Assembly: GCF_900105155.1 (NCBI RefSeq)
Contig: NZ_LT629762.1
Coordinates: 806,001-870,000 of the forward strand
DNA: 64,000 nt
Direction: 5' to 3'
DNA from: Pseudomonas prosekii
GTDB lineage: Bacteria > Pseudomonadota > Gammaproteobacteria > Pseudomonadales > Pseudomonadaceae
The position numbers and the translations under genes are program-made. Below, piece after piece: positions 10,259 to 53,326 of this stretch. Each line of letters starts with the position of its first letter. Positions within the stretch are counted from its first letter, which is position 1. The notes beneath the pieces are model-generated. The model had not been told where the DNA came from, made no database searches, and saw nothing but the letters and a program-made list of their open reading frames with translations.

Positions 10259-10701
10259 TAAATGTGTACACACGACTGTCACCATCGGTGCCATTTATGT
10301 GTGCACTTTTCATTTCAGCGCCCTGAAAAGTTACACAACTCCTTCCTGACTCCCTCAGTAACCGTTGCCCACAAACCCCGCCAAAAAATAAATACCTGTT
10401 CAATCGGTCAATTTATATCGCCTTTTTTTCAACCACTTATCACCCATCGATAACCATTCGAAATGAGCAGGGTTTTTCATAGATCCTGAACTGGCATAGA
10501 TCTGGCTTAAGTGCATACATGTTTTGTATACAATCACCGACAAGACATACACACACTTTCGATCCGCAAGCCTGAAGCGCCCTATCCCGTACAGGCTGCA
10601 GATGCCCCGTAACCAATGATGCTCATTGCCCGCGACGAAGATTTGTCGAGCCGACGCTCACGCACAGTCATCGCGATGCCAAGCTTCAGGAGCCTGCCGG
10701 A
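10259..10701. other. Regulatory gap upstream of the NCS1 permease
   Basis: About 440 bases with no convincing gene. The part from about 10380 to 10470 is visibly A+T rich (CAATTTATATCGCC and a T-tract), as in bent promoter DNA. It contains a weak sigma-54-like site at 10492-10507 (TGGCATAGATCTGGCT, two mismatches, GG and GC kept) and the operator palindrome at 10524. Confidence 0.5.
10524..10533. promoter_or_regulatory. Operator palindrome TTGTATACAA overlapping a -10 element
   Basis: A perfect 10-bp palindrome whose right half forms a -10-like TACAAT (10529-10534). The same sequence with the same -10 overlap precedes puuE at 53316, and it also occurs before the NCS2 permease at 50236. Repression by a shared regulator is inferred. 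Confidence 0.6.
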
Positions 10702-12231
10702 ATGCGTACTAGCCTCTCCAATAACAACATCGCGCTGGATCTGCCCTCCTCACCCCCTGTCCTCGACACCCACAATCAACCCGTGGTCCTCAGCCCTCGC
10801 CTGCACAACAAAGACCTCGCGCCGACCAAGGCTGAAGGCAGGCGTTGGGGGCGTTACAGCATCTTTGCGCTGTGGACCAACGACGTTCACAACATCGCCA
10901 ACTACTCGTTCGCCATCGGTCTCTACGCGTTGGGCCTCGGCGGCTGGCAAATCCTCCTGTCGCTGGGGATCGGCGCGGCGCTGGTGTATTGCTTCATGAA
11001 CCTGTCCGGTTACATGGGGCAGAAAACCGGCGTGCCGTTCCCGGTGATCAGCCGGATCAGCTTCGGCATCCACGGCGCGCAGATCCCTGCACTGATCCGC
11101 GCGGTGATCGCCATCGCCTGGTTCGGCATTCAGACCTACCTGGCGTCAGTGGTTTTTCGCGTGCTGCTGACCGCCGTGCATCCCGGATTCGCCGATTACG
11201 ACCACAACTCGATCCTCGGCTTATCGACGCTGGGCTGGATCTGTTTTGTCGCGATCTGGTTGGTGCAACTGGCGATCCTCGCGTACGGCATGGAAATGGT
11301 CCGGCGCTACGAGGCGTTCGCCGGGCCGGTGATTCTGCTGACGGTCGCCGCCCTCGCCGGGTGGATGTATTTTCAGGCCAACGCGACCATTGCCTGGTCG
11401 ACTCGCGAGCCGCTGACTGGCGCCGAGATGTGGCGCAATATCTTTGCCGGCGGCGCATTGTGGCTGGCGATCTACGGCACGCTGATCCTCAATTTCTGCG
11501 ACTTCGCGCGTTCCTCGCCGTGCCGCAAAACCATCAAGGTCGGCAATTTCTGGGGCCTGCCGGTGAATATTCTGGTGTTCGCGGCCATCACCGTTCTGCT
11601 CTGCGGCGCGCAATTTCAGATCAATGGCCGGATCATCGAAAGCCCGACGGAAATCATCGCCTCGATTCCCAACACGTTCTTTCTGGTGCTCGGTTGCCTG
11701 GCGTTCCTGATCGTCACCGTGGCGGTGAACATCATGGCCAACTTCGTCGCGCCAGCCTTCGTCCTCAGCAACCTGGCGCCGAAATACCTGACGTTCCGCC
11801 GCGCCGGCCTGATCAGCGCGACCATCGCCGTGCTGATCCTGCCGTGGAATCTCTACAACAGCCCACTGGTGATCGTGTATTTCCTCTCCGGCCTCGGCGC
11901 CCTGCTCGGCCCGTTGTACGGGGTGATCATGGTCGACTACTGGCTCGTACGAAAAGCTCAGATCAACGTGCCGCAGTTGTACAGCGAAGACCCCAACGGC
12001 GCTTATTACTACAGCCGCGGGGTCAACCTGCGCGCAGTCGCGGCGTTTATTCCTGCAGCACTGATCGCCATCGTCCTGGCGCTGGTGCCGGGTTTCCACT
12101 TGGTGTCGCCGTTCTCGTGGCTGATCGGCGCCGGGATTGCCGGGATGCTGTACCTGATCATCGCCAAGCGCGAGGCGCATTACGCCGATGTCAGCGGCGA
12201 ATGCATCGCGGTCGATAACGTCAGCCATTAA
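10702..12231 (+). CDS. NCS1-family nucleobase/hydantoin/allantoin permease
   Basis: 509 residues with about 12 hydrophobic segments, typical of the nucleobase:cation symporter-1 family. Visible family landmarks are NDVHNIANYSFAIGLYALGLG (about 60-80, helix 1), IAWFGIQTYLAS with the substrate-stacking Trp/Gln region (about 137-148), and ILNFCDFARSS (about 261-271) at the cation/substrate helix. The first roughly 45 residues are a polar cytoplasmic tail. It lies 56 bp before a racemase-like gene, forming an operon. An allantoin or hydantoin substrate is inferred from that neighbour and from the operator shared with the urate cluster. Confidence 0.85.
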   Translation: MRTSLSNNNIALDLPSSPPVLDTHNQPVVLSPRLHNKDLAPTKAEGRRWGRYSIFALWTNDVHNIANYSFAIGLYALGLGGWQILLSLGIGAALVYCFMNLSGYMGQKTGVPFPVISRISFGIHGAQIPALIRAVIAIAWFGIQTYLASVVFRVLLTAVHPGFADYDHNSILGLSTLGWICFVAIWLVQLAILAYGMEMVRRYEAFAGPVILLTVAALAGWMYFQANATIAWSTREPLTGAEMWRNIFAGGALWLAIYGTLILNFCDFARSSPCRKTIKVGNFWGLPVNILVFAAITVLLCGAQFQINGRIIESPTEIIASIPNTFFLVLGCLAFLIVTVAVNIMANFVAPAFVLSNLAPKYLTFRRAGLISATIAVLILPWNLYNSPLVIVYFLSGLGALLGPLYGVIMVDYWLVRKAQINVPQLYSEDPNGAYYYSRGVNLRAVAAFIPAALIAIVLALVPGFHLVSPFSWLIGAGIAGMLYLIIAKREAHYADVSGECIAVDNVSH

Positions 12232-12287
12232 CTCCCTCGCGGCCCGGCGATGTCGGGCCGCCGAACCACCCGTTATAAGGATTTCCC

Positions 12288-13016
12288 ATGCGAATTCTCG
12301 TGGTCAACGTCAACACCACCGAATCCATCACCCAGGCCATCGCCCGTCAGGCGCAATCGGTCGCCGCGCCGGGCACTGAAATCGTCGGCCTGACGCCGTA
12401 CTTCGGTGCCGATTCGATTGAAGGCAATTTCGAAAGCTACCTCGCCGCCATCGCCGTGATGGACCGGGTGATGGCCGACGACCAACCGTTCGACGCGGTG
12501 ATCCAAGCGGGTTACGGCGAACACGGTCGCGAAGGTTTGCAGGAATTGCTCAACGTGCCAGTGGTGGACATCACCGATGCGGCGGCGAGCACCGCGATGT
12601 TTCTCGGCCACGCGTATTCGGTGGTCACCACGCTGGACCGCACCGTGCCGCTGATCGAGGATCGCCTGAAACTGTCTGGATTGTGGGACCGTTGCGCCTC
12701 GGTGCGCGCCAGTGGTCTGGCTGTGCTGGAGCTGGAATCCGAGCCGCAACGCGCACTGGAAGCGATTGTTCGTCAGGCGGAATTGGCGGTGCTGGAGGAT
12801 AAAGCCGAGGTGATTTGCCTGGGCTGCGGCGGCATGGCCGGGCTGGACGAGCAGATCCGCCAGCGCACCGGCGTGCCGGTGGTGGACGGCGTGACAGCGG
12901 CGGTGACGATTGCCGAGTCGCTGGTGCGCTTGGGGTTGTCGACGTCGAAAGTGCGGACGTATGCGACGCCGCGGCCGAAAGCGATTATCGGCTGGCCGGG
13001 GCGGTTTGGGCGGTAG
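12288..13016 (+). CDS. Asp/Glu/hydantoin racemase family protein, allantoin racemase-like
   Basis: 242 residues, the usual length for hydantoin/allantoin racemases (HpxA-like). It starts with the family pattern RILVVNVNTTESI and ends with TPRPKAIIGWPGR. The second catalytic cysteine is present in VICLGCGGMAG (about 177-187). The first, normally in an ACF/ACY segment near residue 79, appears replaced: the segment reads IQAGYGEHG. Interconversion of allantoin enantiomers would feed an S-specific allantoinase. The missing cysteine makes standard two-base racemisation doubtful. AAGGATTT before the ATG supplies the ribosome site. Confidence 0.78.
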   Translation: MRILVVNVNTTESITQAIARQAQSVAAPGTEIVGLTPYFGADSIEGNFESYLAAIAVMDRVMADDQPFDAVIQAGYGEHGREGLQELLNVPVVDITDAAASTAMFLGHAYSVVTTLDRTVPLIEDRLKLSGLWDRCASVRASGLAVLELESEPQRALEAIVRQAELAVLEDKAEVICLGCGGMAGLDEQIRQRTGVPVVDGVTAAVTIAESLVRLGLSTSKVRTYATPRPKAIIGWPGRFGR

Positions 13017-13027
13017 ACCGCGTTATC

Positions 13028-13098
13028 GTTCTTCGCGGGTAAGCCTCGCTCCTACAGGACCTGCAAAATCTCTGTAGGAGCGAGGCTTGCCCGCGAAC
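13028..13098. repeat. Paired REP element (CCCGCGAA subtype)
   Basis: Two inverted units about 27 bases long (CTTCGCGGGTAAGCCTCGCT and CGAGGCTTGCCCGCGAAC) separated by a short spacer. It lies between the convergent racemase and LysR genes. Confidence 0.88.
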
Positions 13099-13123
13099 GC
13101 CTGACCTCGGTCAACAGCCGAAC

Positions 13124-14047
13124 TCAAACCGCACTGAACCGCTCCGCCAACCCCTGCTCGGCAAACTGCTCAATAATGAAATCGACAAACGCCCGAGTCT
13201 TGCCCGGCAACAATTTGTGCTCGGCGTAATAAATCGAAATGTTGCCATCGTCGACATACCAATCCGGCAACACCCGCTGCAAGGTCCCGGCCTGCAGATA
13301 ACCGACGGCAAACGGCAAACTCACCAGCGCAATCCCCAAACCCTGCGCTGCGGTGGCGCACGCCGCTTCCGAATCGCTCATGGTCATCCGTGGCTTGAGC
13401 ACCAGCGGGCTGTGTTGCCGGGTGCGGCTGGTCAGTTGCCAGGAGCGCACGCGACCGGTTTGCGGCGAGCGGATCAAAATCCCGTCACAGTGCTCGAGGT
13501 CGTCCGGGCCGACAATCGCCTCACGCTGCGCCAGATAATCCACCGAAGCCACCAACACCCGATGCGCCGGGGTCAACTTGCGCGCCACCACGCCTTGCGG
13601 CAATTCAAAGCCGCCGCCAATGGCCGCGTCGAAACCCTGCCCGATCAGGTCAACCTGGCGATTATCGAAATGCCAGTCCGGGTTGATCGCCGGAAAACGC
13701 CGCAAGAATTCCCCGAGCAATGGCACCACATATAAGCGCCCGAACACCGTGCCCATGCTTACCTTCAGCGTGCCGGCCGGCTGCCCTTCAGCACTGGCCA
13801 GATTGGCCACGGCGTTTTGAATGGTGTACAGGCTGGCACTGACTTCGCTCAAAAACAGCTGACCGGCTTCGGTCAACGTCAGGCTGCGGGTACTGCGCTG
13901 AAACAACCGCACGCCAAGGCGCGCCTCAAGTTTGGCGACGCTTTTGCCGACGGCGGCGGGCGTCAGACTAAGGCGCCGCGCGGCCTCGGCAAAGCTGCCG
14001 ACTTCGGCGCTGCGGACGAAGCATTCGATGCTGCTGAAGTTTTCCAT
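13124..14047 (-). CDS. LysR-family transcriptional regulator
   Basis: About 307 residues from the ATG at 14047. A GTG three codons upstream (14056) is also possible and neither has a strong ribosome site. The N-terminal winged helix (MENFSSIECFVRSAEVGSFAEAARRLSLTPAAVGKSVAKLE, residues 1-41) continues into the linker helix. The periplasmic-binding-protein-like effector domain starts near residue 90 (GTLKVSMGTVFGRLYVVPLL). It is divergent from an SDR gene, the classic arrangement in which a LysR protein controls its neighbour. The effector is unknown. Confidence 0.88.
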   Translation of the reverse strand: MENFSSIECFVRSAEVGSFAEAARRLSLTPAAVGKSVAKLEARLGVRLFQRSTRSLTLTEAGQLFLSEVSASLYTIQNAVANLASAEGQPAGTLKVSMGTVFGRLYVVPLLGEFLRRFPAINPDWHFDNRQVDLIGQGFDAAIGGGFELPQGVVARKLTPAHRVLVASVDYLAQREAIVGPDDLEHCDGILIRSPQTGRVRSWQLTSRTRQHSPLVLKPRMTMSDSEAACATAAQGLGIALVSLPFAVGYLQAGTLQRVLPDWYVDDGNISIYYAEHKLLPGKTRAFVDFIIEQFAEQGLAERFSAV

Positions 14048-14067
14048 GGTCGCCACTATAAACTTTT

Positions 14068-14103
14068 GGTTTACACAGACAATCGTAATTATGGTCTACA
14101 CAG
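14068..14103. promoter_or_regulatory. Direct repeats in the LysR-SDR divergent promoter
   Basis: GGTTTACACAG (14068-14078) and GGTCTACACAG (14093-14103) repeat at 25-bp spacing, about two and a half helical turns. They lie just upstream of the LysR start codon, in the LysR-SDR gap. Plausible recognition or activation half-sites for the LysR protein. Confidence 0.4.
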
Positions 14104-14171
14104 GAGGTAATGCGCGGCCGATACTCGACGCCAACCACAAGGCATCCCGCCTTGAATTTCTGGAGATCGAC

Positions 14172-14918
14172 ATGACCACGCAAAATCTCAGCGGCAAAGT
14201 AGCTCTCATTCAAGGCGGATCCCGCGGCATCGGCGCCGCCATCGTCAAACGCCTGGCCGCCGAAGGCGCGACCGTTGCCTTCACTTACGTCAGCTCGAGC
14301 GCAAAAGCTGAAGAGCTGCAAAACAGCATTACCGGCAATGGCGGCCAAGCCTTGGCGATCAAGGCTGACAGTGCTGACGCCGAAGCCATTCGCAACGCCG
14401 TGACCGCTACTGTCGAAGCCTTTGGCCGCCTCGACATCCTGGTCAACAACGCCGGTGTGCTGGCCGTCGCCCCGCTGGAAGAATTCAAACTGGAAGATTT
14501 CGACCAGACCCTGGCCATCAACGTACGCAGTGTATTCATCGCCACTCAGGCTGCCGCCAAACACATGACCGAGGGCGGCCGCGTGATCAACATCGGCAGC
14601 ACCAACGCCGACCGCATGCCCTTCGCCGGTGGCGGCCCGTACGCCATGAGCAAAGCGGCGCTGGTCGGCCTGACCAAAGGCTTGTCGCGCGACCTCGGCC
14701 CGCGCGGCATCACCGTCAACAACGTGCAACCGGGCCCGGTCGACACCGACATGAACCCGGCCAGCGGCGACTTCGCTGAAAGTCTGATCCCGCTGATGGC
14801 TGTCGGCCGTTACGGCAAAGTGGAAGAAATCGCCAGTTTCGTCGCCTACCTGGCCGGCCCGGAAGCGGGCTACATCACCGGCGCGAGCCTGACGATCGAT
14901 GGTGGTTTCGGCGCTTGA
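14172..14918 (+). CDS. Short-chain dehydrogenase/reductase (SDR)
   Basis: 248 residues, classical SDR length. Cofactor loop GGSRGIGAAI (about 14-23, with G in place of the usual T at the first position), NNAG (about 91-94), a catalytic serine in INIGSTNAD and YAMSKAAL (Tyr and Lys), then the PGPVDTDMNP substrate loop and a C-terminal YITGASLTIDGGFGA. The open frame runs upstream to 13932 through the LysR gene. The ATG at 14172, following TGGAGATCGAC, is the sensible start. The substrate cannot be read from the sequence. Control by the divergent LysR protein is inferred. Confidence 0.9.
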   Translation: MTTQNLSGKVALIQGGSRGIGAAIVKRLAAEGATVAFTYVSSSAKAEELQNSITGNGGQALAIKADSADAEAIRNAVTATVEAFGRLDILVNNAGVLAVAPLEEFKLEDFDQTLAINVRSVFIATQAAAKHMTEGGRVINIGSTNADRMPFAGGGPYAMSKAALVGLTKGLSRDLGPRGITVNNVQPGPVDTDMNPASGDFAESLIPLMAVGRYGKVEEIASFVAYLAGPEAGYITGASLTIDGGFGA

Positions 14919-14939
14919 TGCCTTAAAAGGCATCCAAAT

Positions 14940-14970
14940 GTGGGAGCGAGCCTACCGCTCCCACTTTTTT
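14940..14970 (+). terminator. Rho-independent terminator after the SDR gene
   Basis: Perfect 9-bp stem GTGGGAGCG / CGCTCCCAC with a 7-base loop, followed directly by six T. The stem resembles half of a REP unit, so the terminator may derive from one. Confidence 0.8.
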
Positions 14971-14973
14971 GCA

Positions 14974-15669
14974 TCAGGCCCATTCAAGCGCCGGCAGACC
15001 ACACGCGCTCGGGGTGAATGCTTTCAACGTACGAAGAATCACATCGGCGTGTGCGTATTTTTCATCGGCCATGGCCGCATCCGGGATCGCAATCGCGGTC
15101 ATCCCCGCCGCTTTCGCTGCGGTCACGCCAAACGGCGAATCCTCGAACACCAGGCAATCCTGCGGCGCGACACCGAGACGGCGCGCGGCGGCCAGGAAGA
15201 TATCCGGCGCCGGTTTCGCCGCGCCGACTTCCGGGTCATCGGCCGTAACGACGAAGTCGAACAGCGCAAACCAGTCACGGTGCAGGGTGGTTTTCTGGCC
15301 GAACGATTGGCGCGAAGAACTGGTGCCCACCGCAATCGGAATGTTGTTGGCCTTCAAGTGCCGCACCAGTTCTTCGGCGCCAGGCATCGCCAATGCCGAG
15401 GGAAAACGCTCGCGCATCAGCGGTTCACGGATCACCAGAAACTCTTCGGCGGTGATCGGCAAATCCAACGCTTCGACCACGTAACGCGCAAGGTCGCCCG
15501 CGCCGCGGCCAATGATGTTTTGCTTCACGCTCCAGTCGAAGGTGCGGCCGTACCGTTCGACGATCATCGATGTGACTTCGGTGTAGATGCCTTCCGTATC
15601 CAGCAACAAACCATCCATGTCGAAAATAACGGCCTTGATCGGGCCAAACGCTTTCAGTGGTGCATTCAT
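14974..15669 (-). CDS. HAD superfamily phosphatase (beta-phosphoglucomutase/pseudouridine-phosphatase-like)
   Basis: 231 residues. Motif I is FDMDGLLLDTE (Asp nucleophile and acid/base Asp at about residues 17 and 19), followed by a helical cap domain. Motif II is GTSSSRQ (about 116), motif III lysine is in GAAKPAPDIFL (about 150), and motif IV is VFEDSPFG (about 170). The cap type and DxDG(L)(L)xDTE signature place it with subfamily IA enzymes acting on small phosphosugars or nucleotides. Substrate specificity is not readable. It converges on the SDR gene and the terminator between them. Confidence 0.87.
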   Translation of the reverse strand: MNAPLKAFGPIKAVIFDMDGLLLDTEGIYTEVTSMIVERYGRTFDWSVKQNIIGRGAGDLARYVVEALDLPITAEEFLVIREPLMRERFPSALAMPGAEELVRHLKANNIPIAVGTSSSRQSFGQKTTLHRDWFALFDFVVTADDPEVGAAKPAPDIFLAAARRLGVAPQDCLVFEDSPFGVTAAKAAGMTAIAIPDAAMADEKYAHADVILRTLKAFTPSACGLPALEWA

Positions 15670-15927
15670 CGCATCTGATCCGTTCTTGATGACATCCCAG
15701 GCGGCTCAGCTACGGCCATGACTCGGATCGATTAAAGGGTTCAGCAGCATAACGAGCACGGCCCGCCTGGGGCAACCGGGAAAATCCGTCGGGTAAAAAT
15801 CGTCATTCGCGTGCTCGTCGTCATTTAGCGAATATCCCTACAGCATTCACCTCTTTTCCCGACTTCTTTCTCGGCTGATGCAACGCAAAGTCTGGCGCTC
15901 CTTAATGCTGAGCGCGAGTGACTGCGA
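15670..15927. other. Gap upstream of the RHS gene
   Basis: 258 bases between divergent HAD and RHS genes with no gene or repeat recognised. It presumably holds both promoters. Confidence 0.4.
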
Positions 15928-18900
15928 ATGTTCGAACCCAATCGACTGCTGGCTCTGAACAACACCATCGGCCTGCTGGTGGTTGCCGCGATGAACCCGC
16001 AGCGGCCTGACGTCGAAAGCGTGCTCGGCGAGTTCCGCCTCTGCCTTAACGACTACGAACGCTGGGCGGAAAACTTCTGGAGCGGCTGGGCGCTGGATGT
16101 CGAGCAAGTATTCAAGGTTGGCAACGATGTTCGCCTCAGCGCGCCGCTGAAACCGGATAAACCCGTCAGTTCAGTGGTTGCCCAATGCAGCGCGGCCGGC
16201 TCATTGACTTTGGTGCACATGTTCGACGCCGCGCGGTTCGTGCCGATCGGCAATACGCCGGTGATGCTCGAGCCGGTGATCGCGGAACGCGACGGCGAGC
16301 TGACACTCGGCGAGCCGGTCCACGAGACCATTGGCCCGAGCGGCATTCTCGAAGTTTCCGGTTGCCCGCGGGGCCAGCGTTATCGCATCACCTTCTTTCC
16401 CGATGTGTCCGCCGAGCACGTCAAAGTGCTTTACGCCTCCTATCAGGGCTTGCTCGACGGACTCGAGGGCTGGCTGCGCGCGGAGTGGAGCAACCAATTC
16501 GAGCCGCTGTGGAAAGAATTCGCCAGCGGCGGATTTCTCGAGCGCTACGGTCAACTGCAAGAAGCCGATTGGCGCGGCGTCGGCAACTCGTTGCAAGGCG
16601 TCTGGGATGAAGTGAAACAGGTCTACGAGTTGCTCGCCGACTTGCAGGCCAACAGCGAAAAATTGCTGGAATACATTTCCCAGGCTGAGTTGGATGCCTT
16701 GCTCGACGCCTCGGCTGAAGCCATCGCCAACGGCTTGCTGGTATTGAGCGACGAGCCGCTGCTGTTTATTCACCTCGCCGCGCTCACCAGTTGGCTGAAG
16801 ATGCTGCCGCCGCAGTTTGCCGCTGAAGTGGTGGCGCAAATCCGCACTGACCTGCTGATCGCCTTCCTCCTGACAATCGTCACGCGCCGCGTGGGCCTGA
16901 AGCTCGGTTTGAGCGCGAAGATCCTCGGCAAGATCAAATCCCCTCGAGCGCGGCAATGGCTGGCGGCCGCGACGTTGCGCTTGAGCGAACTGAGCTCCGA
17001 CTCTCGCCTCGACAGCCATGCCGCCGCGTTCAAACCGTTGGCGGTCAATGCGCGCCAGGCTCCGTTGCGGCCGACACCCACGGTGCCGCTGGACATTCGC
17101 AGCGACGACGGCACGGCTTTGCGGGTGAAAAACCCCGCCGCCATCGCTCGCAAAAAATCCGACGCGCAAACGCGAATGGTCCGACAGGAACCGCACGACG
17201 ATGCGCCGGAACAAGCCAAAAACACCAACGGCGACAGCGCCGATTGCGCCCCGCTGACCTGTACCAACGGTTGCCCGGTATCGATGGTCACCGGTGAAGA
17301 ACTGCTGACCCTCACCGATGGCGCGCTCGACGGCGTACTGCCATTCGATTTCACCCGGTTGTACCGCACCAGCGCGGCGGAACTCGACTGCGGACTGGGC
17401 TGGGGCTGGAGCCATTCGCTGGCGCATCGCCTGGAATTCGACGGCGATAAAGTCGTCTGGATCGACCACGAGAACCGCCGCACGCCCTTCCCCCTGCCGA
17501 ACATCGAACGCCCGGCGATCCACAACAGCCTCTCGCGAGCGGCGATTTATCTGGGCGACAACGCACAAGAACTGATCGTCGCAATGGCTGGCGAGGCGCC
17601 GCGGTTTTATCACTTCCACAACGGCCAACTGACGGCGATCAGCGATGCCTACGACAACCGCCTGCTGATTACCCGCGATCGGATGGAGCGCATTCAACGC
17701 CTGGATAACGGCGCTGGACGCTCGCTGCTGCTCAGCTACGAACGCGGACATCTGATCGCAATCGAGTATCAGCTCTTTCGCCCCGCCGACACGCTGAGCG
17801 ATGGCTGGCGCACCGAACAGACGCTGGTTTCCTATCGCTACGACGCGCGTCATCACTTGGTCGAAGTCGCCAATGCCGCGGGCGAAAGCGAGCGTTACGA
17901 CTACGACGACCAGCACGTCATCCTCCAGCGGCAATTGCCCGGTGGCGCGAGTTACTTCTGGGAGTGGGAAAGGTCGGGCAAGGCTGCGCGATGCATCCGC
18001 CACCGCGCAACGTTTTCGCAGATGGACACCGCTTACACCTGGGATGACCAGGGCGGCGTGGTGGTGAAAAACGTCGATGGCAGCGAAGAAACTTATGTCC
18101 ACGACGATAAGGCGCGACTGGTGCGGCGCGTCGAGCCGGGCGGCGGCGAACACCGCAAACGTTACGACGAACAGGGTCGGTTGATTGCCGAGCAGGATCC
18201 GCTCGGGGCAATTACCCACTATCGCTACGACGACATCGGACGGCTGATCGCCTCGATTCCTCCCGAAAGTGAGCCGACGTCCTACGAATACCGTAATGGT
18301 TTCCTGCACGCGCGGCGTCGCGGCAAAGCAGTCTGGAAATATCAGCGCAACGCCGAGGGTGATGTGACCGAGGCGACCGACCCCGACGGTCAGGTCACGC
18401 ACTATCACTACGATGCTCGCGGCCGCTTGTTGTCGACCCGCTACCCGGATGCCAGTCGGCACCTGCTGGTCTGGAATGATCTAGGGCAATTGGTCGAAGA
18501 GACCTTGCCGGATGGCGGGCAGCGCTATTTTTCCTACGACTCGCTGGGGCGACGGGCTACCAGCAAGGACGAACATGGCGCGATCACGGCCTATCGATGG
18601 GACGCCATTGGCCGACTGATCCAGACCACGCTTCCTACAGGCGCCACGCGCGCATTCAGTTACAACGCCTACGGCAAGGTGACGGCTGAGCAGGACGAAC
18701 TCGGTCGCATCACCCGTTACGAATATGCCGACGACCTGCATCTGGTCAGCCGCCGGACCAATCCCGACGGCACGCAACTGAGTTACCGCTACGACAATGC
18801 GCAGCTGTTGCTGACGGAAATCGAGAATGAGTCCGGCGAGAAATATCAGCTGGATTACACGCCTGACGGATTGATCCGACAAGAAACCGGATTTGATGGT

Positions 18901-23962: not shown

Positions 23963-24052
23963 TGGCGGTGAAGGAGAGATTCGAACTCTCGATACAATTT
24001 CTTGTATACACACTTTCCAGGCGTGCTCCTTAAGCCACTCGGACACTTCACC
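23963..24052 (-). tRNA. tRNA-Ser(GGA)
   Basis: 90 bases including encoded CCA. The acceptor stem GGTGAAG pairs with CTTCACC, followed by discriminator G and CCA. The anticodon loop CTGGAAA carries GGA (genome 24016-24018). A long variable arm (TATACAAGAAATTGTAT) is typical of class II serine tRNAs. The T arm has GTTCGAATC. It reads UCC and UCU codons. Confidence 0.97.
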
Positions 24053-42574: not shown

Positions 42575-42608
42575 GGTCCTCAGACCAAAACGGCTTTGAG
42601 GTCAGCCA

Positions 42609-43700: not shown

Positions 43701-43778
43701 GCGGGACGCTCCGTGAAATCGAACCTGAATACGTAATGCGCGCCAGTATACGCAGGCTACCCAAGTAGTTCATCCTCG

Positions 43779-43847
43779 AACCTTTCTAGCCTTAACCTTT
43801 CCACCCTTGAACCTTTCCACCCCTGAACCTTTCCACCTGCGAACCTT
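43779..43847. repeat. 16-bp tandem repeat, four and a half copies
   Basis: Units AACCTTTCTAGCCTT, AACCTTTCCACCCTTG, AACCTTTCCACCCCTG, AACCTTTCCACCTGCG and a partial AACCTT run head to tail in the aroC-hydrolase divergent gap. No coding frame. Confidence 0.85.
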
Positions 43848-43894
43848 ATTGGGTGCCCGCGAGTCCAACCGGCAACCTTGTTGATGATGGCGTG

Positions 43895-44848: not shown

Positions 44849-44947
44849 GCGCTGATTGCCCTCCAGTCTTGAGTAAAACGGCCGATAAGCCTTTGTCGCC
44901 AGCGCTAAGACTGGCGGCAAGCAGAGCTTGGACAGGATCTCGCCGTT

Positions 44948-45739: not shown

Positions 45740-45765
45740 CAACACTTTGTGGCGATGGGGCTTGT

Positions 45766-45896
45766 TGTGGCGAGGGGGCTTGCCCCCGTTCGGCTGCGCA
45801 GCAGTCGTAAACCGCTTGCTGCGGTTTAACGCTGAAATGCGCGGGGAAATGCGCGGGCCGCCTCGCGACCCAACGGGAGCAAGCCCCCTCGCCACA
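45766..45896. repeat. Inverted repeat of the TGTGGCGAGGGGGCTTGCCCCC family
   Basis: Same family as 6915-7047, between convergent genes. The right arm (GGGAGCAAGCCCCCTCGCCAC) has one mismatch. Inside, AAACCGCTTGCTGCGGTTT is a further hairpin. Confidence 0.85.
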
Positions 45897-45907
45897 AATG
45901 ATAGCGG

Positions 45908-46816: not shown

Positions 46817-47069
46817 GAGGCAAACTCCAAATAAAACGAGTGGCAATAAAACGACTGGCGATTCTACCAGCCAAAGCGCGCCACGACGACGCGGGAAAAA
46901 CACCGGAGCAGATGTAGGACTTATCTGTATTTTCCATTGGCTATTGAACACAATGCGCATCTTGACAAGGCTGCACGCCAGCAACGACGGCGCCTGCGAT
47001 AGTAGCGATTCACAGAACCGCTCAGCCAGAGGACAATGTCGCAAAAGCCCCACTCCAAGGAGCCCCAGA

Positions 47070-47660
47070 ATGTCCGTTCCACAAACGATGTTTCATCTCA
47101 GCGGCCGCGGTTACCCGGCGGCCAAACTGAGCCAGGCGACGCTGATCATCATCGATGCGCAGAAGGAATACCTCAGCGGCCCGCTGGCCCTGAGCGGCAT
47201 GGATAATGCCGTCGCCAACATCAAGCAACTGGTGAGCGCTGCCCGCGCAGCCGGTCGGCCGATCGTCCATGTGCGCCACCTCGGCACCGTCGGCGGGCTG
47301 TTCGATCCGCAAGGCGAACGCGGTGAATTCATCCCGGGCCTGGAGCCACAGGGCGACGAAACCATCATCGGCAAGTTGCTGCCGAGCGCGTTTCACGGCA
47401 CCCCGCTGTACGATCGTTTGCAGGAACTCGGTTCGCTGGACCTGATCGTTGCCGGTTTCATGAGCCATTCCAGCGTCAGCACCACGGTACGCGCGGCGAA
47501 AAACCTGGGTTTCCGTTGCACACTCGTTGAAGACGCCTGCGCCACTCGCGATTTGCCCTACAAGGACAGCGTGCTGAGCGCCGAACATGTGCAGCAGACC
47601 GAAATGGCGATCATGGCGGACAACTTCGCCACCCTCACCCTGACCCACGATTTGATCTGA
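47070..47660 (+). CDS. Isochorismatase-like cysteine-hydrolase family protein with serine at the nucleophile position
   Basis: 196 residues from ATG 47070 with AAGGAG nine bases upstream. The family Asp ([11 protein letters not shown], about 30) and Lys ([14 protein letters not shown], about 106) are present. The nucleophile segment, usually GxxTxxCVxxTxxxA, reads [16 protein letters not shown], so Ser replaces Cys. Either it uses another mechanism, like true isochorismatases, or it is inactive as an amidohydrolase. Follows prmB divergently, with no pathway context. Confidence 0.82.
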
Positions 47661-47791
47661 TCGCCTGACGCTGAGCGGTCGATGCCGCCGCTCATCCGCA
47701 AAAGCCTCTCATTTGCTGCAATTGCCTTAGCCTCAGGAACATCCCGGTCAACTCCCGGTCGAAGGGCCGATACCCATTGAGGAAGGTCGGA

Positions 47792-48112
47792 ATGAAGTTA
47801 TCCGATGGTTTTGACGCACGCCGCTTGCGGCCCAAAGGCCAAAGCAACTGGCGTTTTCGAATCGGCGCAACGATTGCCGCGCTGCTGGCGATGCTCGGTG
47901 TGCTGATGGCACTGGCCGGCGGCGCCAGTCTGCTCGGCCACGCGCCCGCGATGGGCGAACTGAACACCAACAAGGCCGGCGCGGCGGTGATCCTGGTGAT
48001 TGGCCTGCTGGTGTTGTACATCGGCGTCTGGCTGTGGCGTCGTTGCAGACGTCGCTCGCGCCAGTCGCAAGAGCTGAACATGGCTCCGCATCTGATGAAA
48101 AAACACGACTGA
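47792..48112 (+). CDS. Two-span membrane protein of unknown function
   Basis: 106 residues from ATG 47792 with GAGGAAGG before it. A basic N-terminus (ARRLRPKGQSNWRFR) is followed by two hydrophobic helices (IGATIAALLAMLGVLMALAGGASLLG and AAVILVIGLLVLYIGVWLWRR) and a very basic cytoplasmic tail RRCRRRSRQSQEL. No domain recognised. It lies before the Smr gene with 90 bp spacing. Confidence 0.7.
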   Translation: MKLSDGFDARRLRPKGQSNWRFRIGATIAALLAMLGVLMALAGGASLLGHAPAMGELNTNKAGAAVILVIGLLVLYIGVWLWRRCRRRSRQSQELNMAPHLMKKHD

Positions 48113-48202
48113 ATCCTCGAGCTCGGCACTGGCCGGGCTCCAATTGTTTGTTATGGATAGCGTCGTGACTTGGGTAAACTGCCCTCCTTCGCGGAGGCTG
48201 AC

Positions 48203-48760
48203 ATGCAAGACGACGATTTTTCCCTGTTCAAAAGTGCGATCCAAGGCGTCAAGCCGATCAAGCACGATCGCGCCGAAACCGGCAAACCCAAGGCTGACCG
48301 CGCGCAGATTGCCAAGCTGCGTCAGGCTGCCACCGTGCGCACCGATGCGACCACCGTCGACGGCCTGTCCGATCAGTTTGTGATCGACGTTGGCCCGGAA
48401 GACGAGCTCATGTGGGCCCGCGACGGGGTTCAGGAAAGCCAGATCCGCAAACTGAAGATTGGCCAGATCCCCTTCGAAGGCAGCCTCGACCTGCACGGCA
48501 TGAATGTCGGAAAGGCCCGCGAAACCCTGTGGGCGTTCCTTGCCGAAGCGACCAAATTCGAAATCCGCTGCGTGCGCGTCACCCACGGCAAAGCGGTGCG
48601 CCTGGACGGCAAGCGGCCGATGATCAAAAGCCACGTCAACACCTGGCTGCGCCAGCATTCCCAAGTACTCGGCTTCACCTCTTGCCAAGCTAAACACGGC
48701 GGCGCCGGAGCGGTTTATGTGCTGCTCAAACGGACCATGATGGAAGGTCGCGACGAGTAA
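48203..48760 (+). CDS. Smr-domain protein (putative endonuclease, YfcN/SmrA type)
   Basis: 185 residues from ATG 48203 (CGGAGG eight bases upstream); an ATG at 48170 is possible but weaker. The C-terminal Smr domain starts near residue 98: GSLDLHGMNVGKARETLWAFL contains the LDLHG motif, VRVTHGKAVRLDG the xTHGK motif, and CQAKHGGAGAVYVLL the GGxGA-like end. The N-terminal part is charged and probably disordered. Stand-alone Smr proteins cut nucleic acids; E. coli SmrB acts on collided ribosomes, but that particular role is not inferable here. Upstream of folE by 77 bp. Confidence 0.87.
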   Translation: MQDDDFSLFKSAIQGVKPIKHDRAETGKPKADRAQIAKLRQAATVRTDATTVDGLSDQFVIDVGPEDELMWARDGVQESQIRKLKIGQIPFEGSLDLHGMNVGKARETLWAFLAEATKFEIRCVRVTHGKAVRLDGKRPMIKSHVNTWLRQHSQVLGFTSCQAKHGGAGAVYVLLKRTMMEGRDE

Positions 48761-48837
48761 AGCTGTCGCTTCACGCTTGCAGCGCCGTGTCCGCCACCGT
48801 ACCCTTGCCCTTTGCGTAAAATCCCACAGGTAGTTTC

Positions 48838-49383
48838 ATGTCCCTGGAACAGAATTACACCGCGATTCTCGGCCAATTGGGCGAGGACGTTTCCCGCGAG
48901 GGCCTGCTCGACACGCCAAAGCGTGCCGCCAAAGCCATGCAGTACCTCTGCCGCGGTTATGAACAGACGCTTGAAGAAGTCACCAATGGTGCCTTGTTCA
49001 GCTCCGACAACAGCGAAATGGTGCTGGTCAAGGACATCGAGCTCTACTCGTTGTGCGAACACCATTTGCTGCCGTTTATCGGCAAGGCGCACGTCGCCTA
49101 TATCCCGAGCGGCAAGGTGTTGGGGCTGTCGAAAGTCGCGCGGATCGTCGATATGTACGCCCGCCGCCTGCAGATCCAGGAAAACCTCAGCCGCCAGATC
49201 GCCGACGCGGTCCAGCAAGTCACCGGCGCCCTGGGCGTTGCAGTGGTGATCGAGGCCAAGCACATGTGCATGATGATGCGCGGTGTCGAGAAACAGAATT
49301 CGTCGATGATCACTTCGGTGATGCTCGGCGAGTTCCGCGAAAACGCCGCTACCCGCAGCGAGTTTCTCAGCCTGATCAAGTAA
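48838..49383 (+). CDS. folE: GTP cyclohydrolase I FolE
   Basis: Converts GTP to dihydroneopterin triphosphate, the first step of folate/pterin synthesis. 181 residues, the short form common in Pseudomonas. Zinc ligands: Cys and His in [10 protein letters not shown] (about 63-72) and Cys in [12 protein letters not shown] (about 141-152). [24 protein letters not shown] is the family signature. Has its own terminator. Adjacent Smr gene order resembles other Pseudomonas chromosomes. Confidence 0.95.
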
Positions 49384-49400
49384 TTCGGCAGCACGAAGAA

Positions 49401-49428
49401 AACCGGCATTCATCGCCGGTTTTTTTTC
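49401..49428 (+). terminator. Intrinsic terminator after folE
   Basis: AACCGGC-ATTCATC-GCCGGTT followed by a run of T, about 18 bases past the stop. Confidence 0.85.
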
Positions 49429-49484
49429 GCCCGTGAAAAGTACGGTAAGCTGCGCGCCTTCTTTCGCCCCGTGAGGCTTATACC

Positions 49485-49856
49485 GTGTTCGTAAAAGCGC
49501 TTCGTGTCGGCCTTGGCCAACTGATCATCTTCATCGACTTCATCACCCGCCCCGGCAAGAAGCAGCGCCCGGCGGAACATCAAGCCAAGGTCAACGCGGC
49601 AGCCAAGGACCTGACGCTGTATCAGTTCCACGCCTGCCCGTTCTGCGTGAAAACCCGCCGCACGCTGCGCCGCTTGAATGTGCCGGTGGCGTTGCGTGAT
49701 GCGAAAAACAACGAGCAGGATCGCCAGGCGTTGCTGGATCAGGGCGGCAAAATCAAAGTCCCGTGCCTGCGCATCGAAGAAAATGGGCAGACCACCTGGA
49801 TGTATGAATCCAAGGTGATTATTGATTATCTGGATAAGCGCTTTGCTGCGGTTTGA
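49485..49856 (+). CDS. Glutaredoxin-like / GST-N-terminal-like thiol protein
   Basis: 123 residues from GTG 49485 with GTGAGG about nine bases upstream. A hydrophobic N-terminal segment (KALRVGLGQLIIFIDFIT) may anchor it. The thioredoxin-fold part starts near residue 42 (LTLYQFHACPFCVKTRRTLRRLNVPV) with the redox CPFC motif, the cis-Pro in KVPCLRIEE and ESKVIIDYLDKRF at the end. A small glutaredoxin with membrane attachment is the best description. No partner in the operon. Confidence 0.85.
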   Translation: MFVKALRVGLGQLIIFIDFITRPGKKQRPAEHQAKVNAAAKDLTLYQFHACPFCVKTRRTLRRLNVPVALRDAKNNEQDRQALLDQGGKIKVPCLRIEENGQTTWMYESKVIIDYLDKRFAAV

Positions 49857-49880
49857 TGGATTTGCAGTGTCCTGTTTGAT

Positions 49881-49977
49881 GCCATCGCGAGCAAGCTCGC
49901 TCCCGCAGGGTTTTGTGGGGTGATGGAAATAGGCGGCACCTTCGATCCCTTGCGGGAGCGAGCTTGCTCGCGATGAG
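49881..49977. repeat. Paired REP element (CTCGCGA subtype, inverted arrangement)
   Basis: ATCGCGAGCAAGCTCGCTCC and its complement CGGGAGCGAGCTTGCTCGCG flank about 45 bases. Head order is reversed relative to the TGTAGG...CTACA pairs. Confidence 0.9.
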
Positions 49978-50006
49978 GCCAGCCCAGACACCACAATTCA
50001 CAGACC

Positions 50007-50037
50007 CAAAAAAACCGGCCCTCGAGCCGGTTTTTTT
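50007..50037 (+). terminator. Intrinsic terminator
   Basis: AAACCGGC-CCTCGA-GCCGGTTT followed by T run. It lies 150 bases past the glutaredoxin-like gene, between two REP pairs. Confidence 0.8.
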
Positions 50038-50094
50038 ATGCCTTCACGCAGCCTGCAACGCCTGCGCCTGCCGCACCACCGTCGCCAGTCTGAG

Positions 50095-50165
50095 CCCTAT
50101 CGCGAGCAGGCTCGCTCCTACAGGGAAATGCGGTCGACTGGAGGAGTGAGCCTGCTCGCGATGGC
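50095..50165. repeat. Paired REP element (CTCGCGA subtype, short spacer)
   Basis: CTATCGCGAGCAGGCTCGCT and its near complement GAGTGAGCCTGCTCGCGATG with about 20 bases between; arms share the compensated CAGG/CCTG variant. Confidence 0.85.
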
Positions 50166-50374
50166 GTCGGAACAGGCGATATATCGCTAACGCCAAAAAA
50201 TTCGTCTACAAAACCAAAAACATTATTTGCTTTATTTGTATACAAAAGCATAATCCACTTCGTGCGAGTTCCTGACCAAGCGGTCAACAAATTCGCAAGT
50301 GCCTCAAAGGACCGCTGCCACCCTCATGGGTCCGGTCCTGGAAATAAAAATAAAACTCTTGAGGAGTACTCGCT
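50166..50374. promoter_or_regulatory. Promoter region of the NCS2 permease gene
   Basis: Contains TTGCTT (50227-50232), 16 bases, CATAAT (50249-50254) as a possible promoter with the operator palindrome inside the spacer. No gene seen. Confidence 0.4.
50235..50246. promoter_or_regulatory. Operator palindrome TTTGTATACAAA
   Basis: A perfect 12-bp palindrome that contains the same TTGTATACAA core (50236-50245) found before the NCS1 permease and before puuE. It sits between candidate -35 and -10 elements, a repressing position. Confidence 0.6.
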
Positions 50375-51724
50375 GTGGAAAGCCGCAAATCCGAAGCCCC
50401 GTCGCTGGATCTCTCGCCGCCGTTACGCAAAGGCTGGCTGGAGCGCATCTTCAAACTCAGCTTGCATGGCACCACGGTGAAGACCGAGCTGATCGCCGGT
50501 CTGACAACCTTCATTACCATGGCGTACATCATCTTCGTCAACCCGAACATCATGGCTGACGCTGGCATCGACCACGGTGCGGCGTTTGTTGCCACTTGCA
50601 TCGCCGCCGCGCTCGGCTGCCTGCTGATGGGCCTGTACGCGAACTGGCCGGTCGGCCTCGCGCCGGGCATGGGCCTCAACGCGTTCTTCACCTATACCGT
50701 GGTCGGCACCATGGGCTACAACTGGGAAACCGCCCTCGGCGCGGTGTTTATCTCGGGCGTGTTGTTCATGTTCCTGACCTTTTCGCGGATCCGCGAATGG
50801 TTGCTCAACAGCATTCCAGTCAGCCTGCGCTACGCCATGGGCGCCGGCGTCGGCCTGTTCCTCGGCCTGATCGGCCTGAAAACCGCCGGCATCGTCGTCG
50901 ACAGCCCGGCCACCCTGATCAAACTCGGCTCCCTGCGCGAGCCCGGCCCGCTGCTCGCGGCCATCTGCTTCCTGATGATCGCCGTGCTCAGCTATCACCG
51001 AGTGTTCGGCGCCATTTTGATCAGTATCATCGCCGTGACATTGGCCGGTTGGGGCCTGGGCCTGGTTCACTATCAAGGCCTGATGTCGGCACCGCCAAGT
51101 CTGGCGCCGACCTGGATGGCCATGGACGTCGCCGGCGTGTTCAACATCAGCATGATCAGCGTGGTGTTGGCGTTCCTCTTCGTGCACATGTTCGACACCG
51201 CGGGCACCTTGATGGGCGTCGCCCAGCGCGCCGGTCTGGTCAACGCCGACGGCAAAATCGAAAACCTCTCCCGCGCACTCAAGGCTGACAGTGCGTCGAG
51301 CGTATTCGGCGCGATGGTCGGCGTGCCGCCGGTCACCAGTTATGTAGAAAGTGCCGCCGGTGTGGCAGCGGGTGGTCGGACTGGTCTTACCGCTGTGACC
51401 GTAGGTGTGCTATTTATTGCCGCAATGTTTTTCGCACCGCTGGCCGGCATGATTCCGGCTTACGCCACCGCCGGCGCACTGATTTATGTCGCGATGCTGA
51501 TGATGGGCGGCATGGCGCACATCGAATGGGACGAAGCCACCGACAGCATTCCGGCCATCGTGACCGCGATCATGATGCCGCTGACCTTCTCGGTCGCCGA
51601 CGGCATCGCGCTGGGCTTTATCACTTACGTGGTGTTGAAGGCTTGCACCGGTAAACACAAGGAAATTTCCATCAGTTTGTGGGTGCTCTGCGCGATCTTC
51701 ATCGCCAAGTTCGTTTTTCTGTAA
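50375..51724 (+). CDS. NCS2-family purine permease (AzgA/GhxP-like, COG2252)
   Basis: 449 residues from GTG 50375 (GAGGAG about nine bases upstream). About 12-14 hydrophobic segments. Family stretches: TELIAGLTTFITMAYIIFVNP (about 38-58), ANWPVGLAPGMGLNAFFTYTV (about 90-110), LFVHMFDTAGTLMGVAQRAG (about 270-289) and VPPVTSYVESAAGVAAGGRTGLTA (about 310-333). This group moves adenine, guanine or hypoxanthine with protons. The operator upstream links it to the urate genes that follow. Confidence 0.9.
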   Translation: MESRKSEAPSLDLSPPLRKGWLERIFKLSLHGTTVKTELIAGLTTFITMAYIIFVNPNIMADAGIDHGAAFVATCIAAALGCLLMGLYANWPVGLAPGMGLNAFFTYTVVGTMGYNWETALGAVFISGVLFMFLTFSRIREWLLNSIPVSLRYAMGAGVGLFLGLIGLKTAGIVVDSPATLIKLGSLREPGPLLAAICFLMIAVLSYHRVFGAILISIIAVTLAGWGLGLVHYQGLMSAPPSLAPTWMAMDVAGVFNISMISVVLAFLFVHMFDTAGTLMGVAQRAGLVNADGKIENLSRALKADSASSVFGAMVGVPPVTSYVESAAGVAAGGRTGLTAVTVGVLFIAAMFFAPLAGMIPAYATAGALIYVAMLMMGGMAHIEWDEATDSIPAIVTAIMMPLTFSVADGIALGFITYVVLKACTGKHKEISISLWVLCAIFIAKFVFL

Positions 51725-51735
51725 GCCGTCTACGT

Positions 51736-51784
51736 TTCAAAACAGTTTTCAAAACAGTTTTTTCAAAACGGTGCTTCAAAACAG
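51736..51784. repeat. Four irregular copies of TTCAAAACAG
   Basis: Copies at 51736, 51748, 51762 (as TTCAAAACGG) and 51775, spaced 12-14 bases, directly after the permease stop and before its terminator. Confidence 0.8.
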
Positions 51785-51809
51785 CCTCACCCCGTCGGGT
51801 GGGGCTTTT
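51785..51809 (+). terminator. Intrinsic terminator between permease and LysE-family gene
   Basis: CCTCACCC-CGTC-GGGTGGGG stem followed by CTTTTG. Confidence 0.7.
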
Positions 51810-51828
51810 GCACATTAGGAGGAAAGTG

Positions 51829-52455
51829 ATGAGTCTGGAAACCTGGCTGCTGTTCAGCGGCGCTGCGCTGGTGGTAATCCTGATCCCGGGGCCGTTGTCT
51901 TTGCTGATGATCAGCAACAGCTTGAATTACGGTTTGCGCCGATCTTATCCGGCATTCCTCGGTGGCGTGATTGCTTCGATCTGTCTGCTCAGCGCCTCGG
52001 CACTGGGCCTGGGCGCCCTGCTGCTGGCGTCGGAACAGTTGTTCAGCGCGCTGAAGATCGTCGGCGCGCTGTACCTGTTTTACCTCGCCTGGCAGAGCTG
52101 GCAGCAATCGCGCCAGCCGTCGGTGGGTGCCGAAGTGCCGCAGACCGCCGCGGTGCCGCGCTTTCGGGCGCTGTTCGGGCGCGCGTTTGTGCTGGGCGCG
52201 AGCAATCCGAAAGACATCCTGTTCTTCGCCGCGTTTCTGCCGCAATTCTTGAGCGCCGAGCAGCCGTTTCTCCCGCAATTGCTGGTGATGATCGCGACCT
52301 GGACGGTGCTCGATCTGCTGTGCAAGTTGGCGTATGGGCTGGGCGCGCACGGCGCGGCGCGGTATCTGCGCAGCGGCAAGGGGCAGAGTTGGTTTAACCG
52401 GGTCAGTGCCGGGTTGTTCAGTGGCGCGGGCGCGGCGTCGTTGTTGAGCCGCTAA
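51829..52455 (+). CDS. LysE/RhtB-family amino acid exporter
   Basis: 208 residues from ATG 51829 with AGGAGG seven bases before it. Five to six hydrophobic helices. Family signature near the start: LIPGPLSLLMISNSLNYGLRRSYPAFLGG (about 19-47), and GASNPKDILFFAAFLPQFL (about 122-140). These export amino acids or homoserine lactones. It lies inside the purine region but behind its own terminator and strong ribosome site, so a link to purines is not indicated. Confidence 0.88.
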   Translation: MSLETWLLFSGAALVVILIPGPLSLLMISNSLNYGLRRSYPAFLGGVIASICLLSASALGLGALLLASEQLFSALKIVGALYLFYLAWQSWQQSRQPSVGAEVPQTAAVPRFRALFGRAFVLGASNPKDILFFAAFLPQFLSAEQPFLPQLLVMIATWTVLDLLCKLAYGLGAHGAARYLRSGKGQSWFNRVSAGLFSGAGAASLLSR

Positions 52456-52457
52456 AA

Positions 52458-52523
52458 GCTTCGCGGGCAAGCCTCGCTCCTACAGGTATCACCGACCGTA
52501 GGAGCGAGGCTTGCCCGCGAAGG
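52458..52523. repeat. Paired REP element (CCCGCGAA subtype, short spacer)
   Basis: CTTCGCGGGCAAGCCTCGCT and CGAGGCTTGCCCGCGAAG around about 15 bases. Confidence 0.9.
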
Positions 52524-52553
52524 CGCCGTCCGCAACAGCATATTTCTCAAGGC

Positions 52554-52580
52554 AAAAAAAAGCCCGCAGTGTGAGCGGGC
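52554..52580 (-). terminator. Intrinsic terminator of uraH
   Basis: On the minus strand CGCCCGCTC-ACACT-GCGGGCT is followed by a long T run (eight or more). About 57 bases past the uraH stop. Confidence 0.8.
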
Positions 52581-52636
52581 GAAAGACCAAAGAAGCTTTA
52601 TGCGCAGCTTTTTTCAGAAGAAGCGGCTTGGGGGAC

Positions 52637-52990
52637 CTAGCTTCCTCTGTAGGTCGAATAGCTGTATGGCGAAATCAGCAACGGCACATGGTAGTGATCC
52701 TGCTCGGCAGAGATGCCGAACCGCAGCACCACCACATCCAGGAACGCCGGCTCCGGCAGCTGAACGCCACGGGCGCGGTAGTAATCGCCCGCATGGAACT
52801 GAACCTGATAGACCCCGGAACGGTAATCATCACCCTGCAACAGCGGTGCATCGACACGGCCATCGCTGTTGGTTATCGCGCTGGCGACCAATTCCAGCTG
52901 CGAACCTTCAACGCGGTACAACTCGACTTTGATCGAGCTGCCCGGGCAACCGTGTGCAGCGTCTAAAACGTGTGTAGTCAAACGTCCCAT
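52637..52990 (-). CDS. uraH: 5-hydroxyisourate hydrolase UraH
   Basis: Transthyretin-like enzyme that opens 5-hydroxyisourate, the product of urate oxidation, to OHCU. 117 residues. The N-terminal LTTHVLDAAHGCPG has the catalytic His; GRVDAPLL holds the conserved Arg; YHVPLLISPYSYSTYRGS ends in the diagnostic YRGS tetrapeptide. On the minus strand, divergent from puuE. No good ribosome site is seen before the ATG. A 9-bp hairpin occupies the leader instead. Confidence 0.95.
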   Translation of the reverse strand: MGRLTTHVLDAAHGCPGSSIKVELYRVEGSQLELVASAITNSDGRVDAPLLQGDDYRSGVYQVQFHAGDYYRARGVQLPEPAFLDVVVLRFGISAEQDHYHVPLLISPYSYSTYRGS

Positions 52991-53002
52991 TGATTCTGCG
53001 CG

Positions 53003-53025
53003 CCTGACTGCTCAGTGCAGTCAGG
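53003..53025 (-). promoter_or_regulatory. Hairpin in the uraH 5' leader
   Basis: CCTGACTGC-TCAGT-GCAGTCAGG: a perfect 9-bp stem ending 12 bases before the uraH start codon on the minus strand, where a ribosome site would normally lie. No T run follows on either strand, so it is not a terminator. Confidence 0.45.
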
Positions 53026-53120
53026 CCTCGCGCCTCCCGAAGTCAGTTGAAAGGAGACCGCACCGTTTCGGAGCACGAAAAGCTGCGGCGAGCGACTGAT
53101 TAAGACACTTTTCAAAAAAA

Positions 53121-53130
53121 TTGTACACAA
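53121..53130. promoter_or_regulatory. Imperfect operator TTGTACACAA near the uraH promoter
   Basis: Differs from the TTGTATACAA operators by one base. Positioned 131 bases upstream of the uraH start codon on the uraH side of the divergent region. A second site for the same regulator is inferred. Confidence 0.4.
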
Positions 53131-53296
53131 TAAAAACGACATTTTTCTCACGACCAACGCCATCTACCGATTTGCGCCGAATCACACCCCGGACCAGACG
53201 ATCAGCGGACCTCCTGTCCATTAGCTGACCATTCAGGCAGGTTTCTTGCAGTATCACGTTTGGATGACAGCCAATGAAAAATGCAAAAATTCAGGC

Positions 53297-53326
53297 TTAC
53301 AAAGTCGATATAAAGTTGTATACAAT
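53297..53326 (+). promoter_or_regulatory. Promoter with operator TTGTATACAA for puuE-uraD-alc-allA-puuD
   Basis: TTACAA (53297-53302), 18 bases, TACAAT (53321-53326). The operator palindrome at 53316-53325 overlaps the -10, exactly as at 10524-10534. Binding here should block RNA polymerase. Confidence 0.55.

Follow-up and report, generated by a model that had tools for sequence, protein, structure and literature searches.

A conserved palindrome is the probable operator of a UgmR (GclR)-type repressor over a split urate and allantoin regulon in Pseudomonas prosekii

A 64-kb stretch of the genome of the soil bacterium Pseudomonas prosekii (positions 806001–870000 of the single 6,091,955-base (6.09-Mb) contig; hereafter the window) carries a urate degradation cluster and, at a distance from it, a permease/racemase gene pair, which are preceded by the same perfect palindrome, TTGTATACAA. 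Gene context, conservation, and genomic distribution of this decamer make it very likely the operator of UgmR (also GclR), a repressor of the GntR family with an FCD domain, which is encoded ∼35 kb outside the window. A preliminary description of this DNA had proposed that one repressor controls a split urate/allantoin regulon and that it acts from outside the window. Both proposals are supported, by a ugmR-type gene next to xdhABC-guaD that has its own near-copy of the palindrome and by the conservation of the sites together with their target genes.

The window contains three exact copies of TTGTATACAA (10524–10533, 50236–50245, and 53316–53325) and two copies with a single mismatch, TTGTACACAA at 53121 before uraH and TTGTATACAC at 24002. 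The four copies previously described were thus confirmed, and no further exact copy was found in the window. The copy at 24002 was dropped, because on visual inspection it appears to belong to a minus-strand serine transfer RNA gene. Against an expectation of 0.49, the window has five matches when one mismatch is tolerated; none of 100 shuffles reached five or more. Genome-wide, there are nine exact copies, whereas the control, the same letters reversed, occurs once. When one mismatch is allowed (exact copies included), the decamer yields 31 matches and the control 45, so the genome-wide enrichment is confined to the exact palindrome and does not extend to near-misses. This deficit would suit a chance similarity among AT-rich 10-mers, but the excess of exact copies and their conservation at orthologous positions leave that explanation a negligible probability. 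A literature search for TTGTATACAA in combination with Pseudomonas gave one paper, in which the letters are part of a primer, and no binding data for the decamer; a search with the letters alone gave, among the matches listed, no title on a urate/glyoxylate regulon.

We read the neighborhoods of all nine exact copies. Six precede purine, allantoin, or glyoxylate genes: the three window copies (genome 816524, 856236, and 859316, before the NCS1 permease pair, a purine permease gene, and puuE), a copy at 659796 before a xanthine permease gene (TIGR03173, above cut-off), and two copies at 979912 and 980050 before gcl-hyi-glxR, which is followed farther on by a pyruvate kinase gene (NCBIfam assignments). 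The other three lie before the azurin gene (2133451; TIGR02695), beside zapA (2264047), and before a Chalcone_3/DUF3833 gene pair (5381012). The association with purine-related promoters anticipated in the preliminary description therefore holds for six of the nine copies and fails for three. Of the further sites it predicted, that at a GntR-type gene was found, as a one-mismatch copy preceding the FCD-GntR gene beside xdhABC-guaD. Those at xanthine dehydrogenase and guanine deaminase were not: among 73 xdhA upstream regions (80 loci, 7 of which were dropped for want of a usable region) none has a site with up to one mismatch and two have one with up to two mismatches, which rules out xdhA as a target, and the sole site with up to one mismatch in the 19-kb stretch around guaD (L028) is that at 9621, upstream of ugmR. 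The same stretch carries a second FCD-GntR gene (L028:1424–2083), divergent from xdhA, which may control xanthine dehydrogenase separately.

The candidate regulator gene ugmR (genome 770762–771526) lies to the left of the window in the order xdhA-xdhB-xdhC-guaD-ugmR. Among 13 FCD-domain matches in the genome, it is the one at 770876–771241 that comes directly after xdhA-xdhB-xdhC-guaD. The protein combines a GntR winged helix (PF00392) with an FCD domain (PF07729), both above cut-off, and its start codon is preceded, at a distance of ∼94 bp, by TTGTACACAA (genome 771620). In the gene order PA1520–PA1524, the regulator gene is likewise a neighbor of genes for guanine deaminase and xanthine dehydrogenase. 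The available text of PMC1173109 prints PA1520 primers. Two of these primers encode the peptides IDSKLN and GEFHL, which both occur in our protein, and two others gave no clear match. Within the set of 13 FCD proteins, IDSKLN matches fully only the UgmR candidate, and GEFHL also matches L026. The deletion stated for PA1520, of codons 131–145, fits our residue numbering as well, ending just before GEFHL, which starts at residue 147. According to the available text of PMC12694930, UgmR of Pseudomonas aeruginosa binds upstream of gcl and of PA1513–PA1518 and represses both, and uric acid relieves the repression; GclR is tied to xanthine metabolism in that of PMC13357446. Searches for a name of the regulator were uninformative: no NCBIfam model scored above cut-off, a PDB sequence search gave only distant GntR chains, and the best 120 of 490 rows of a large protein search held neither UgmR nor GclR, being mostly unnamed or “GntR family” with one NanR. 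The FCD-GntR gene inside the window (2802–3683) has the best FCD score of the genome, but its product is only 30% identical to UgmR and is not the regulator meant here.

Conservation of the sites was analyzed in the best-scoring loci of each target, with our own genome in each set, so distant relatives are under-sampled. The sets comprised 30 of 39 matches for the NCS1 permease (36 of 79 genomes of the family Pseudomonadaceae), 30 of 41 for the purine permease (41 of 50 genus genomes), 30 of 38 for the xanthine permease (37 of 50), 30 of 35 for the LOG gene near azurin (35 of 50), all 25 for Chalcone_3 (25 of 50), 30 loci for puuE (from 52 of 79), and 30 of 31 for gcl (31 of 79); 500 bp upstream were searched for the NCS1, purine permease, and LOG/azurin sets and 600 bp for the others. 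A site with up to one mismatch is present in 28/30 NCS1, 29/30 purine permease, 30/30 xanthine permease, 30/30 puuE (29 exact), 22/30 gcl, 24/30 LOG/azurin, and 13/25 Chalcone_3 loci. For 19 control palindromes composed of the same letters, the mean was 0–1.0 loci per set, with a highest single value of 9 in the xanthine permease set. The NCS1 sites are found at all levels of protein identity (4/4 at ≥89%, 9/10 at 63–70%, and 15/16 at 33–41%), the lowest of which may include permeases of other substrates.

In aligned promoters, no segment is better conserved than the site, ties being possible, for the xanthine permease (30 loci), azurin (20 of 30), puuE (17 of 30), Chalcone_3 (13 of 25), the NCS1 permease (4 of 30), and ugmR (80 loci). 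The two gcl sites rank second and fourth (22 of 30 loci aligned), the purine permease site 8th of 191 segments (30 loci), and the site on the uraH side 16th of 311 (the same 17 loci as for puuE). In the ugmR promoter, TTGTGTACAA is kept in 80/80 close loci, which are not independent, because the proteins are 97–99% identical. Family-wide, all of the 30 ugmR loci examined (of 37 matches) have a site with up to one mismatch within 300 bp; in 14 of them the sole site, at a distance of 220–261 bp, may belong to a divergently oriented neighbor.

The preliminary description had also placed the sites relative to promoter elements. TACAAT is indeed present at 10529–10534 and 53321–53326, and CATAAT (50249–50254) lies downstream of the site at 50236. 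A consensus scan of the three operator regions returned no σ70-like promoter, which leaves the −35/−10 assignments plausible. The overlap of TACAAT with the sites at 10524, at 53316, and in the azurin promoter raises the question of whether the decamer is kept as a −10 element (TATACAAT) to which no repressor binds. This is improbable: the full palindrome is kept, including the outer TTG, whereas the bases 3′ of it vary among targets, and the gcl promoters have two copies, one only 33–37 bp ahead of the start codon and the other 128–157 bp from it. Nor would −10 elements be expected to track the presence of UgmR, as the exact copies do. With UgmR called present at E ≤ 1e-50 (≥69% identity) in 79 family genomes, 33 genomes with UgmR contain 174 exact copies (control, 6) and 46 without it contain 62 (control, 34). 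This corresponds to ∼5 versus ∼1 copies per genome (Mann-Whitney p = 3.6e-10, without phylogenetic correction). Genus g13 is an exception with 6–7 exact copies, but the control reaches 2–11 there. When every exact copy was placed in three relatives, the same purine, allantoin, or glyoxylate genes accounted for 6/9 (G030), 6/8 (G067), and 5/8 (G050).

Several observations count against the palindrome as the operator of UgmR. The genomes behind the conservation counts are related, so these counts are not independent, and three of the nine exact copies (azurin, the Chalcone_3 gene, and zapA) do not fit purine catabolism. One genome (G007) has UgmR yet no exact copy, and 8 of 30 gcl loci are without a site, 7 of them from genus g15, whose genomes have UgmR. 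Allantoin also induces gcl, probably not via UgmR, according to the available text of PMC12694930. Conversely, genomes of genus g6 have 2–4 copies and no UgmR at E ≤ 1e-50, and their puuE and NCS1 genes keep the operator. In four g6 loci (L143, L148, L150, and L151), the NCS1 permease gene and an FCD-GntR gene are arranged back to back, and each is preceded by a site. The product of one of these regulator genes was compared with UgmR and shows 39% identity (blastp E = 1.6e-47); it is a diverged form of UgmR or else a replacement under which the operator was kept. Finally, our own genome encodes a paralogue, L025, that is likewise 39% identical to UgmR; the near-copy TTGCATACAA precedes its gene and also adjoins a divergent operon.

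This near-copy at a paralogue makes shared use of the operator possible. UgmR and paralogues (e.g. that encoded at genome 132804–133169) would then divide the targets or overlap on them, and some window sites would mainly be a paralogue's. The g6 relative on the same operator points in this direction, as do the sites of a second GntR protein, PA0120, obtained at gcl by systematic evolution of ligands by exponential enrichment (SELEX) in the available text of PMC12694930. On the other side, every ugmR locus tested has a site upstream of the gene, and the exact copies track the presence of UgmR; we regard the shared operator as a rather unlikely alternative to UgmR being the principal regulator.

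For regulation by UgmR, we infer the following mechanism. A UgmR dimer would most likely occupy the palindrome, in the −10 region or immediately downstream of it, and block transcription by occlusion. Genes for purine uptake, the enzymes from urate to glyoxylate, the allantoin permease and racemase, the gcl operon, and ugmR itself would be repressed in this way. Urate, produced by a xanthine dehydrogenase whose genes have no operator, would then release UgmR, in line with the repression of gcl and PA1513–PA1518 and its relief by uric acid described for P. aeruginosa in PMC12694930.

Very likely, the two distant genes encode an allantoin importer and a racemase that belong to the UgmR regulon. 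The first base of the operator at 10524–10533 is 178 bp before the start of the NCS1 permease gene (10702–12231, plus strand; PF02133 above cut-off), whose product is a relative of the hydantoin permease Mhp1. The operator is exact here and in all three other same-genus orthologues (89–94% identical), and no segment of the 200 bp upstream of the gene is conserved better in these four loci. All NCBIfam scores of the permease remain below cut-off (NF008476, 281 of 620 bits; NF047713, 231 of 800; TIGR00800 (NCS1), 297 of 353); because it falls well short of the allantoin permease models, its substrate is deduced from the racemase neighbor, and it is best read as an allantoin permease. The racemase (12288–13016, plus strand; PF01177) is identical to the allantoin racemase of PDB 5lfd in 216 of 242 residues. 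Read together, permease and racemase would provide allantoin uptake and the use of both enantiomers, functions that belong naturally to urate breakdown.

In the urate cluster, the first base of the operator at 50236–50245 is 139 bp before the gene of a purine permease of the Xan_ur_permease family (50375–51724, plus strand; PF00860), which matched no NCBIfam model. The hydroxyisourate hydrolase gene uraH (52637–52990; PF00576) is on the minus strand, with the variant TTGTACACAA at 53121–53130 on its side of the intergenic region and the exact operator at 53316–53325 before puuE. The plus-strand genes that follow encode the allantoinase PuuE (53421–54347; TIGR03212 above cut-off), the OHCU decarboxylase UraD (54344–54859; TIGR03164 above cut-off), the allantoicase Alc (54947–55942; PF03561), a ureidoglycolate lyase (56068–56571; PF04115), the membrane urate oxidase PuuD (56622–57923; PF06181), and, downstream in the cluster, a second Xan_ur_permease family (NCS2) permease (58063–59421; PF00860). 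PuuD has a C-terminal CSVCH heme-binding motif at residue 361; Pfam reported no cytochrome domain on it.

The gcl promoters fall into two kinds. Among the 30 loci (L303–L332), an HbpS-like gene lies upstream of gcl in each of the 22 that carry the operator, and a LysR gene takes its place in each of the 8 that do not. This distribution shows, at the level of gene arrangement, that gcl promoters have switched between the UgmR operator and a divergent LysR gene. The split agrees with the available text of PMC13357446, in which a gcl gene of Pseudomonas umsongensis comes after the LysR gene ttdR and, in strain GO16, deletion of the GclR-like gene had no effect on growth on ethylene glycol.

One of the sites off the purine pathway is that at azurin. 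The perfect operator (L012:8452–8461, genome 2133451) lies 90 bp before the azurin start codon and is present in each of G030, G067, and G050. A nearby LOG (TIGR00730) gene was considered as its target and ruled out, because G067 and G050 keep the site by azurin with no LOG gene beside it. In the LOG set, a site with up to one mismatch occurs in 24/26 loci with azurin in the stretch and in 0/4 without it (Fisher p = 0.0005, not corrected for relatedness). Azurin is a blue copper electron carrier. It might tentatively be placed in the urate regulon, where it could accept electrons from the periplasmic heme domain of PuuD, a doubtful proposal that builds on one conserved operator and one heme motif. 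The available text of PMC4562309 places the cytochrome domain of PuuD in the periplasm and suggests a link to respiration, leaving the acceptor open; it also names superoxide scavenging as an alternative role and reports no specific inhibition by azide. A study of an azurin mutant in another Pseudomonas (PMC13413535) contains no occurrence of uric, allantoin, or purine. If the proposal is true, azurin and PuuD would each gain a physiological partner.

The Chalcone_3/DUF3833 operator (L014:9013–9022, genome 5381012) is present in 13/13 loci with ≥74% identity and in 0/12 below. Its promoter also holds TTGTACAA and GTGTATAA, presumably reminiscent of a light-type promoter of MerR/LitR regulators. 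A glycine-zipper gene, for which we know of no link to purines, is preceded by TTGTGTACAA (L036:6027–6036, genome 2482026) and by exact TTGTATACAA in G067 and G050 (L363 and L368). The zapA site (L013:8048, genome 2264047) lies between zapA and its downstream neighbor; it recurs in G030 (L377), but the exact copies of G067 and G050 do not include it. G030 has one further copy without a clear gene, and one copy of G050 falls within a long reading frame. An exact operator of G059 (L372:14910) is found ∼130 bp before a TetR gene whose product is 82.6% identical to the TetR_C_3 (YcdC-like) protein L011_6546. TetR_C_3 (YcdC-like) proteins are the kind of regulator proposed for allantoin induction in the available text of PMC12694930.

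The closest known system is UgmR (PA1520) of P. aeruginosa, likewise a GntR repressor acting on gcl and the urate/allantoin cluster with relief by uric acid (PMC12694930, citing Xu et al. 2022, in its available text). In contrast to that system, the chromosome of P. prosekii has the urate cluster, gcl, and ugmR at separate places. The operator here also precedes an allantoin permease/racemase pair and two purine permease genes, which may be a second difference. GclR (PP_4283) of Pseudomonas putida KT2440 is also a GntR repressor of gcl with a link to xanthine metabolism, and the P. umsongensis GO16 protein is 89% identical to it (available text of PMC13357446, where the context is the use of ethylene glycol and xylose). 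The copy of P. umsongensis DSM 16611 (L110) is 97% identical to ours, and the correspondence to PP_4283 runs via P. umsongensis. Allantoin racemase structures (PDB 5lfd and 5lg5), close as they are to our racemase, are silent on regulation. In Escherichia coli, AllR is an IclR-type protein. It is alike in being a single regulator over allantoin and glyoxylate genes and, judging by a paper title, senses allantoin and glyoxylate.

On the sequence evidence, the shared palindrome is real, is very probably the operator of UgmR/GclR, and mainly extends the known regulon of this repressor. What would be new is the addition of the allantoin pair to this regulon, the operator/LysR split of gcl promoters, and the conserved, unexpected site in front of azurin. 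UgmR/GclR would gain a concrete 10-bp candidate operator together with a family-wide list of targets, and its regulon would gain allantoin uptake, racemization, and purine uptake, whereas xanthine dehydrogenase, which makes the likely inducer, would stay outside.

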